Virus record (IMG/VR): IMGVR_UViG_3300032236_000481
Span: 1 to 38,042 of that record
Length of the DNA: 38,042 bases
DNA from: a virus
Direction: 5' to 3' (one strand)
Below are positions 20,370-32,427 of the stretch, piece after piece; the first letter of the stretch is position 1, and every line of letters begins with the position of its first letter. The notes under the pieces are model-generated. The model had not been told where the DNA came from, did no database searches, and saw only the letters and a program-made list of their open reading frames with translations. Made by a program: the position numbers and the translations under genes.

Positions 20370-20424
20370 AGTTAGACAATAGCCTCGAATATGTCTAATA
20401 TCTTTCGGCGATATTCTTTCGATC

Positions 20425-20653
20425 CCCGGGTATAAATACGCACCCCCCCCGGGTGAGCTAGTGGCAACGGGTAACGGATACCCCGGCGAGATAGGTAGAC
20501 GCTACGGGTTACGCGTACCGGGTAAGTGTGTATAACGTGGGGATAAGTAAAGGGATAATCTCCCGGATATCTCCACAATATGGGGAAAAATTGGGGATAA
20601 GTCCCGGGTATAAGTGGAAGATATACAGGGTGGAAAGTGTGATAAACCAACAC
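20425..20653. repeat. Repeat-rich non-coding segment, candidate origin or control region
   Basis: The segment has two copies of CCCGGGTATAA (20425, 20603), a further CCCGGG inside a C8 run (20443-20453), two copies of GGGGATAAGT (20539, 20593), a related AGGGATAAT (20551) and GGTTACGCGT (20507). Such iteron-like direct repeats at a switch in gene direction are typical of origins or regulator-binding regions. A 93-codon minus-strand frame covers it, but it reads as Tyr/Pro-rich low complexity with no ribosome site, so I treat the DNA as non-coding. Confidence 0.45.
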
Positions 20654-30562: not shown

Positions 30563-31096
30563 ATGACCACAATCATCGGAGTTGAGTACGAAGAGGGCTG
30601 TACCCTCATGGCTGACAGCCGTACCACCGACTCTGAAGGTCGGATCTATAGCCATCCATCTGTTACTAAACTTAACAAGCGCGGTGATTTCATTATCGGC
30701 GGAAGTGGTGAGGCTTATCCCTGCGACGTGGCTCAACACTTGTGGGTACCACCCAAGTTGACGGCAAGAGATAAGAGAGACTTGGTTCATTTTATGATTA
30801 CCAAGGCAATGCCATCTTTGCGTAGGTGCTTAATTAAGCATGGCTATAACTTCAACGAAGTATCAACCGAAATGCGCTTTCAATTTCTTATTGCTGTGGG
30901 TGGATACATCTTTGATGTAGACCAAGAACTGGTCGCATCGAGAAATGACCCAGGTATTTATGCCGTTGGTTCTGGATCTTCTTATGCTCTTGGCGCTCTT
31001 CATGCAGGAGCCGATATTCAAGAAGCAATGGATATCGCAGCAAAGCTGACTGCCTTTACTGCTCCACCTTATCTTCAGTTGACTCAACTGCGTTAA
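30563..31096 (+). CDS. HslV/proteasome-like Ntn-hydrolase (177 aa)
   Basis: The start MTTIIGVEYEEG matches processed HslV and proteasome beta subunits, in which Met removal exposes the catalytic threonine (T2 here). D18 in LMADSRTTD and K36 in SVTKLNKRG fit the other active-site residues. GSGSSYALGALHAG near 136-149 and DIQEAMDIAAKLTAFT near 151-166 match the conserved C-terminal part of HslV. Length is close to HslV (about 175 aa). No ATPase partner is visible, so it may act alone or replace or poison a host chamber. It is the only plus-strand gene in this region and ends 41 bases inside the methyltransferase gene. A palindrome GAGAATTCTC (30550-30559) covers the ribosome site. Confidence 0.78.
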   Translation: MTTIIGVEYEEGCTLMADSRTTDSEGRIYSHPSVTKLNKRGDFIIGGSGEAYPCDVAQHLWVPPKLTARDKRDLVHFMITKAMPSLRRCLIKHGYNFNEVSTEMRFQFLIAVGGYIFDVDQELVASRNDPGIYAVGSGSSYALGALHAGADIQEAMDIAAKLTAFTAPPYLQLTQLR

Positions 31097-31712
31097 CCAA
31101 GCGCCCAATAATCCACTCTACAACAGGTACTGCAACTGCATTACCCATCTGCTTATAACGATTTGAGTCTGCTTGCTCATCAGTCCAACCATCTGGAAAC
31201 CCTTGCAAGCGCTCACACTCTGTTGGAGTGAGACGGCGAACAACTGGCGGTTGATCTATAAATAACTGCGCATGATGTGATTGAACTGATGGTTGGTGTG
31301 CCTGAAGAGCAAGCGATACTTCTGTTTCCGTAGCGCTGAAGTTATTTGCCTTAGCATCTTCGCGGATTGAATAGGCAACTGCTTGACCACCTGTGCGATC
31401 CAGAGTATATGAAGGAGCGTTTTCAGCTCCGATCCCTAAACCATTTTGATTCTTTTCCATCTCACGCCCATCTTGAATTGGGAATATCATCGGTACGTTT
31501 CCTCCACCTGTGCCGTAACGAGAGATAACTGTTGGGGCTATCTCATCTTCATAAACTCTTACATCTCCAACGCGAGTGCCATCAACAATAAGAACTGTTG
31601 CGTAGGCTTCTCCGTTGTTATCCATTCTGTTCAATGTAGGAACTACCCCCCCCTGAATCCATGTTTCATAATCTTCTTCTGAAGAGGCGCGCTTGCCTTT
31701 AGTGAACCACAT
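31056..31712 (-). CDS. C5 cytosine methyltransferase, C-terminal part (218 aa)
   Basis: The C-terminal portion has motif IX (VRRLTPTECERLQGFPDGW, about 158-176) and motif X (YKQMGNAVAVPVVEWI, about 186-201), which finish the C5-methyltransferase fold. Residues 1-155 (FTKGKRASSEEDYETWIQGG, and PTLNRMDNNGEA) look like the target recognition part of phage cytosine methyltransferases. Motifs I-VIII are in the overlapping upstream ORF, 14 bases shared. Its ATG has only a weak ribosome site. It contains a G8 run (31646-31653). It may be a separate subunit, as in the split enzyme M.AquI, or the tail of a frameshifted gene. Confidence 0.8.
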   Translation of the reverse strand: MWFTKGKRASSEEDYETWIQGGVVPTLNRMDNNGEAYATVLIVDGTRVGDVRVYEDEIAPTVISRYGTGGGNVPMIFPIQDGREMEKNQNGLGIGAENAPSYTLDRTGGQAVAYSIREDAKANNFSATETEVSLALQAHQPSVQSHHAQLFIDQPPVVRRLTPTECERLQGFPDGWTDEQADSNRYKQMGNAVAVPVVEWIIGRLVNAVESTEDKVEQ

Positions 31713-32427
31713 TGGAAGCCTGCAACAAATTGCTATGAATTGCTTGGTGGCTAGTTTGTCCCTTGATTAAATCGGAAACAGTTAGAGCGCCGACTGTATT
31801 GCTTCTAATGCTTTCTGTAACTTTGTTGGAAGGGTTTTGTCCCTCCGATTTGCTCGCCTCAAGATACCTGCTGCGGCTTTCGGCGATAGCGAGTATTTGA
31901 GCAGGTGCCCCCCCCCCATCTCCAAGACATCCGACAATGAAGACTCTTTTTCTTCTTTGGGGGACTCCGAAGTGTTGAGCATCAAGCACCCGCCAGGCGA
32001 TGCGATACCCGCGCTCGACCAACGCTTCAACGACTGCTGCCATGTCTCTTCCTTGATTTGAGGAAAGAAGACCAGGGACATTTTCGAGGATAAAGTTTTG
32101 CGTTCTTGTTTCGTCAAGGAGTCGGCAGATTTCCCAGAAAAGTCCAGACCGTTTTCCTGCCAGTCCTGCTCGCTTACCAGCAACGGACAAATCTTGGCAA
32201 GGAAATCCCCCTGTAATGATTCCATCGTTGGGAGTAAATCCTGCATTGATAAGTTGTTCACCTGTTACCTCCGTAACATCGCCAAAGATTGTTGAATTCG
32301 GAAAGCGTCGGCGTAGCACTTCCTGAGCTTTTTTATCAATCTCTACTGACGCTACAACTTCAACGCCATTTCTTTCTAGCGCAAGGTCAAATCCCCCGAC
32401 ACCAGCAAATAAACTAACTGCTTTCAT
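31699..32427 (-). CDS. C5 cytosine methyltransferase, N-terminal catalytic part (242 aa)
   Basis: Motif I (SLFAGVGGFDLAL), motif IV with catalytic C77 (GGFPCQDLS), motif VI (LENV) and motif VIII (QRRKR, 157-161) are all present. After residue 170 the reading frame meets a run of ten G (31908-31917). In the frame shown the protein continues to ASNVVH. In the frame reached by dropping one G, the next residues include YSLSPKAAAGILRRA, a segment I know from this part of phage cytosine methyltransferases. So the frame after the run is uncertain: slippage, phase variation, decay or a read error are all possible. The enzyme would modify phage DNA against host restriction. Confidence 0.85.
   Translation of the reverse strand: MKAVSLFAGVGGFDLALERNGVEVVASVEIDKKAQEVLRRRFPNSTIFGDVTEVTGEQLINAGFTPNDGIITGGFPCQDLSVAGKRAGLAGKRSGLFWEICRLLDETRTQNFILENVPGLLSSNQGRDMAAVVEALVERGYRIAWRVLDAQHFGVPQRRKRVFIVGCLGDGGGAPAQILAIAESRSRYLEASKSEGQNPSNKVTESIRSNTVGALTVSDLIKGQTSHQAIHSNLLQASNVVH
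31908..31917 (-). repeat. Run of ten G in the methyltransferase gene
   Basis: Ten C on the plus strand, G10 in the sense direction, directly after the codons for motif VIII. Such runs gain or lose bases easily during copying and are the classic basis of phase variation. Confidence 0.95.

Follow-up and report, generated by a model that had tools for sequence, protein, structure and literature searches.

Introduction

How can one short stretch of phage DNA read as methyltransferase in two frames at once? The question is raised by a run of ten G in the window, by which we mean the whole stretch of DNA analysed here, the 38,042-nt IMG/VR record IMGVR_UViG_3300032236_000481 (positions 1 to 38,042). 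An earlier note on this DNA had observed that the catalytic part of a C5-cytosine methyltransferase runs into the G10 run, that the annotated frame and the frame reached by losing one G both look like methyltransferase beyond it, and that the two are mutually exclusive unless the reading frame shifts again. Its observations were sound: the ten G are present on the minus strand, the annotated frame (ORF1) continues past them into ...TVGALTVSDLIKG... as methyltransferase, and the alternative, +1 frame encodes ...KYSLSPKAAAGILRRA..., whose profile matches the segment that follows motif VIII in one-chain C5-methyltransferases. The supposed exclusivity is where we part from it, because a separate open +1 frame of 159 codons (ORF3), which begins 344 bases upstream of G10, crosses the run unshifted; if both frames are read, each passes G10 at its present length, and there is no dilemma between them. 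Judged from the sequence, dual coding of the region is very probably the answer to the frame puzzle. The features on which the argument depends are collected in Table 1.

Table 1. Features of the methyltransferase locus, in window coordinates.
Feature	Position	Strand	Description	Basis
ORF1	31699..32427	-	242 aa; C5-cytosine methyltransferase, alpha part, motifs I-VIII	PF00145, TIGR00675
ORF2	31056..31712	-	218 aa; second methyltransferase part: target-recognition region, motifs IX and X	PF00145, motifs
ORF3	31782..32261	-	159 aa; nested in the +1 frame, entirely within ORF1	homologues, start and Shine-Dalgarno, synonymous constraint
ORF3 Shine-Dalgarno	32267..32272	-	GGAGGT, 5 nt upstream of the GTG at 32261
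ORF3 C-terminal domain	31791..31946	-	about 50 aa, SLSDVLE...KYSLSPKAAAGILRRA...LP..L..AL, short helices	pLDDT, profile match
G10 run	31908-31917	-	within ORF1 and ORF3; no frame effect at present length
G8 run	31646-31653	-	in ORF2 (ETWIQ-GG-VVPTLN), in frame (ON); candidate on/off switch	length variation among homologous sites

A Methyltransferase in Two Consecutive Reading Frames

ORF1 aligns with PF00145 (4e-58) over profile positions 1-167 of 324 and with TIGR00675 (5.9e-57) over positions 2-163 of 329, and it contains both GGFPCQ, which holds the catalytic PCQ motif, and ENVPG, which holds ENV. ORF2, whose start overlaps the final 14 nt of ORF1 and which is kept as a separate ORF in most of the clade, matches PF00145 at positions 245-322 (3.6e-15) and supplies motifs IX and X as QGFPDGW and GNAVA. 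TIGR00675 positions of about 164-236 are matched by neither protein; the segment that follows motif VIII is missing from the methyltransferase chains of the window, and its relative is the C-terminal domain of ORF3. An in-chain segment after motif VIII is usual for C5-methyltransferases without being strictly defining, there being naturally split enzymes that lack it. As a separate observation on window positions 31056-32427, the ORF2 protein is 100% identical to that of a relative (L001/L081), whereas divergence is far greater in the 5' half of ORF1, a mosaic of identities that suggests recombination within the methyltransferase locus.

Evidence That the Nested Frame Is a Gene

ORF3, which also encodes the YSLSPKAAAGILRRA stretch, has a start site of its own. 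An in-frame TAA (32267-32265) lies between its Shine-Dalgarno sequence and its GTG, the pattern GG(A/G)GGTAACAG-GTG is present in most close relatives, and the start codon of the relatives is GTG in 97 of 98 sequences and TTG in the remaining one. Preservation of this site is also visible in the codons of the methyltransferase: glycine codon 53 is GGG, the rarest glycine codon of the long ORFs of the window, in 78 of 78 sequences, and GGT occupies, in 87 of 93, the glycine codon from which the GTG start of ORF3 is formed. In many P1-type genes a GGAG precedes an ATG at the equivalent place, about 103 codons into the methyltransferase, and otherwise the start-site signal is weaker outside the clade of the window.

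The second line of evidence is constraint on synonymous codons. Among 96 close relatives, the methyltransferase frame has a mean synonymous-codon diversity of 0.49 in the part upstream of ORF3 and of 0.55 in motifs IX-X of ORF2, against 0.30 in the N-terminal part of ORF3 and 0.09 in its C-terminal domain. Base variability within that domain is 0.41, 0.28, and 0.23 at methyltransferase codon positions 1, 2, and 3, respectively, so that the first position, which is the third of ORF3, varies most and the third varies least, the reverse of what a gene read in the methyltransferase frame only would display. When synonymous codons were randomised, the probability of the +1 frame staying open was 0.0003-0.08 in each of 14 lineages, and the +2 frame, taken as a control, never provided 120 open codons at the same place. 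The synonymous randomisation, the flip in codon-position variability, and the +2 control together led us to reject the idea that ORF3 is a shadow forced by the codons of the methyltransferase. What does count against dual coding is the N-terminal half of ORF3, which is of low complexity, is modelled with a pLDDT of about 45, and is as poor as would be expected of a mere shadow of methyltransferase motifs. ORF3 nevertheless presents the features of an overprinted gene, namely a conserved and selected open second frame with its own start; the substitution pattern indicates that it is under selection as a protein, and we infer that it is translated.

Conservation and Distribution

A tblastn search with ORF3 returned matches in P1 and in phages of Mycobacterium, Caulobacter, Streptococcus, Vibrio, and gut bacteria, and wherever a match was inspected it lay in the +1 frame of the annotated methyltransferase. 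The distribution of ORF3 takes in the dmt gene of phage P1, Omegavirus mycobacteriophages, gut phages, and prophage-like loci of several bacterial phyla, with an offset of +1 to the methyltransferase in 126 of 126 distinct loci. The frame is open for some 160 codons in nearly all of these loci, and the few interruptions (L133, L144, L162) are found only near the N-terminus. A wider search with a profile of the C-terminal domain added 80 bacterial-genome loci and 80 viral-contig loci; across all sets, matches cut by a contig end being left out, the domain is in the +1 frame relative to a methyltransferase in 323 of 324 matches. The sole exception, L319, is a locus in which the methyltransferase itself changes frame near motif VII; the change may be a natural mutation or stem from misassembly. 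ORF3 stays open at L319, in frame with the first part of the methyltransferase.

Relatives chosen by methyltransferase motifs alone carry ORF3 in 74 of 75 cases, a figure that describes the clade rather than all phage methyltransferases because only the closest 80 relatives were retained. A comparable +1 frame is absent from E. coli dcm and from the methyltransferase of Klebsiella phage KP15. P1 dmt retains a +1 frame of 163 codons. Of 5426 complete E. coli genomes, 493 contain ORF3, almost without exception on a plasmid. Gene callers mostly leave ORF3 out, and the P1 record has no gene annotated for it.

Product and Origin of ORF3

In the AlphaFold2 model of ORF3 the core of the C-terminal domain reaches a pLDDT of about 93 and the rest is poor. 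Foldseek comparison gave no fold match in the PDB; on the viral side, the best matches were an unnamed protein of 81 aa from Mycobacterium phage Thibault and an entry for a phage methyltransferase. Sequence searches of Pfam, NCBIfam, PADLOC, and the PDB yielded no match that names a function. The only good match in the family libraries, at 1.1e-10, is phrog_16143 (139 aa), labelled DNA methyltransferase, a family that conveys, label included, neither a function nor the overlap. A more informative comparison comes from hhalign, which places the profile of the C-terminal domain on the stretch immediately following motif VIII in one-chain C5-methyltransferases such as Dcm (P 1e-5), with a score of 34.8, against 15.2 for the best of 60 column-shuffled controls.

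At the level of profiles, then, the C-terminal domain is of methyltransferase origin, and its resemblance to the segment following motif VIII makes ORF3 probably a displaced piece of the enzyme. Given this match and the lack of the same segment in ORF1 and ORF2, the most likely origin of ORF3 is a frameshift that put the post-motif-VIII segment out of frame, after which the displaced part would have become a gene by starting inside the upstream frame.

The strongest competitor, which we consider unlikely without dismissing it, is that the product of ORF3 is an effector in its own right, say one of anti-restriction or regulation, whose gene happens to lie on that of the methyltransferase and which does not become part of the enzyme. 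The ORF3 domain is small, basic, and helical, and ORF3 is retained where a single methyltransferase chain has motifs I-X, as in P1. Against this stand the resemblance of the C-terminal domain to a methyltransferase segment and the constant company of the two genes: searches of viral, genome, phage, and plasmid sequences found no free-standing copy, the three ORF3 fragments without a methyltransferase each lay at a contig edge, and a free-standing ORF3 gene was accordingly rejected as a candidate. Whether ORF3 binds the methyltransferase, or is needed by it, we would put at an even chance.

A further reading, which we regard as improbable, is programmed frameshifting, in which ribosomes translating ORF1 would move to the +1 frame around motif VIII, yielding a fusion of methyltransferase motifs I-VIII with LSPKAAAGILRRA, ORF3 not being translated on its own. 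Such a fusion would bring back the ancestral order of methyltransferase segments, and the loss of one G from G10 would indeed join motifs I-VIII and LSPKAAAGILRRA in one frame. There is, however, no conserved slippery site, G10 itself being missing in all relatives, and frameshifting would call for neither some 100 open codons of +1 frame upstream nor, in that part, synonymous constraint and a conserved Shine-Dalgarno sequence and start codon.

The G10 Run

The ten G form the longest G or C run of the whole window, and in principle such a tract is unstable; here it is located in two coding frames, which lent weight to the suggestion of phase variation, slippage, or a read error at G10 itself. 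We hold a role of this kind to be very improbable. The stretch aligns without gaps to sequences of relatives such as TCAGGGCGAT, and among 103 distinct sequences more than five G occur at the site in one, namely the contig of the window, all other aligned relatives having at most five G at equal length. A search of viral contigs found no other contig with the G10 allele at any run length, so that G10 is no conserved, length-variable tract of the sort that defines a contingency locus, and both ORFs stay open at its present length. The concern that the frame is uncertain at G10 through decay, slippage, or error is likewise not borne out: homologues of either frame are unbroken at hundreds of loci, and it is because alignments run through each frame without a break that the G10 hypothesis fails, by the very comparison of homologues that the earlier note had proposed. 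With the run private to one contig, length-preserving, and without a length variant, we rejected G10 as a programmed or phase-variable site; it is incidental or an artefact of poly-G base-calling and has no programmed role. That the methyltransferase is a decaying pseudogene, as several frames and a split within one short region might suggest, is scarcely credible and was rejected, since the split, the nesting, and the frames repeat in more than 100 relatives under purifying selection in both frames, and relatives with random stops in all three ORFs were not seen.

A Candidate Phase-Variable Tract in ORF2

The proposal that single phages could switch the methyltransferase on and off is plausible, albeit at a different tract: not G10 but the G8 run in ORF2, 255 bases further along. 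Nearly identical sequences with different run lengths, the observation expected of a switch, are absent at G10 and present here. Among 107 sites homologous to G8, 69 have at least 7 G, and the frame of ORF2 is broken at 18 of these 69 versus none of the 38 with shorter runs; in 16 of the 18 broken alleles the downstream half, which carries motifs IX and X, is still intact. Where the tract is a run it comprises 6-12 G (loci L001-L158), identical flanks are seen with 7, 8, and 9 G, and two loci that differ as G8 and G9 (L101 and L108) share 97.5% downstream identity. The tract thus combines the attributes of a contingency locus, a conserved homopolymer whose length differs between near-identical sequences and toggles the frame, and this combination of a conserved tract, broken frames with intact downstream halves, and varying lengths between identical flanks is the signature by which we read it as phase-variable. 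That G8 switches methylation in the living phage seems to us a reasonably good bet, with the general reservation that homopolymer lengths in metagenome contigs may be erroneous. A further G8 run was noticed at 20443-20450 on the minus strand, inside a 93-codon ORF (20372-20653).

Proposed Organization and Its Significance

We propose that ORF1 would encode the catalytic half of a phage C5-cytosine methyltransferase, comprising motifs I-VIII; that ORF3, having a separate ribosome-binding site within ORF1, would be translated in the +1 frame into a protein whose N-terminal part is predicted to be disordered and whose C-terminal domain, compact and helical, derives from the post-motif-VIII segment; and that ORF2, beginning at the end of ORF1, would provide the target-recognition region and motifs IX-X. 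The polypeptides most likely assemble as one enzyme, in which ORF3 would return the segment missing from ORF1 and ORF2, and methylation would probably be switched by slippage at G8 of ORF2, G10 presumably playing no programmed part. The full generalization, to which we give slightly less than even credence, is that a large and ancient clade of phage C5-methyltransferases, P1 included, consists of multi-subunit enzymes encoded in two frames, in which a piece displaced from the methyltransferase fold is contributed by a hidden +1 subunit that gene callers overlook, and that in one aquatic phage lineage the enzyme is switched by a conserved poly-G tract.

Annotation pipelines usually discard long overlapping genes on the same strand, and only a small number of such genes are known to be conserved across phages of several bacterial phyla; ORF3 sits in the much-studied phage P1, yet it is unannotated there. 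If ORF3 is a subunit, studies of the activity or specificity of phage C5-methyltransferases may, where only the annotated ORF was used, have dealt with an incomplete enzyme. As for phase variation of DNA modification encoded by a phage, the G8 tract opens it to direct testing.

Comparison with Known Systems

The small subunit of M.EcoHK31I is read from another frame that overlaps the large one. A similar layout, a nested +1 ORF with motif IX, occurs in Callan, Porphyromonas, Synechococcus, and Vibrio ZQ26 phages, and nested motif-IX +1 ORFs resembling the small subunit of a split enzyme were seen at four loci (L411, L413, L414, and L417) from phages of Porphyromonas, Synechococcus, Paenibacillus, and Vibrio. 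M.EcoHK31I is a naturally two-chain C5-methyltransferase in which one subunit carries motifs I-VIII and X and a small second subunit carries motif IX (PMC3404938). ORF3 differs in that it contains no motif IX and has the post-motif-VIII segment instead, and the P1-like cases differ further in having a long chain with motifs I-X.

Other nested frames were encountered alongside these. In the Dylan and Cindaradix phages (L412 and L420) a +1 ORF starts inside the first methyltransferase gene and extends past its end, and two Streptococcus phage loci (L410 and L415) have a shorter nested +1 ORF of 141-142 codons, ending ...CSLSDILEE...FLS..., that stands in the tree beside one-chain Dcm-like methyltransferases and is perhaps an independent case of the same displacement. 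In the tree of the catalytic half, the 58 rows with ORF3 need 4 label changes, compared with a shuffled mean of 17.3; the types with either nested ORF are strongly clustered, and a single origin is not firmly supported (88/94).

The division between ORF1 and ORF2 resembles that of M.AquI, a two-chain C5-methyltransferase divided into motifs I-VIII and IX-X (PMC3404938). As in M.AquI, the split falls in the variable region, a division that is conserved in relatives and here comes with a 14-nt overlap, and the window adds to this plan the nested ORF3 and the G8 tract. To our knowledge, M.AquI has no nested ORF or G tract of this kind.

We found no description of the overlap between ORF3 and the methyltransferase in the literature searched. 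The nearest parallel among phage methylases is the ShiLan type, in which an out-of-frame HNH endonuclease is present as an inserted mobile element of sporadic occurrence (PMC11855218). ORF3 shares with it the status of a second, out-of-frame gene with a GTG start within a phage methylase gene, and gp104 of Mycobacterium phage Constella holds both ORF3 and a nested, annotated HNH gene. In contrast to the ShiLan-type element, ORF3 is no inserted sequence: it is superimposed on the catalytic motifs, and nearly all members of its clade possess it.
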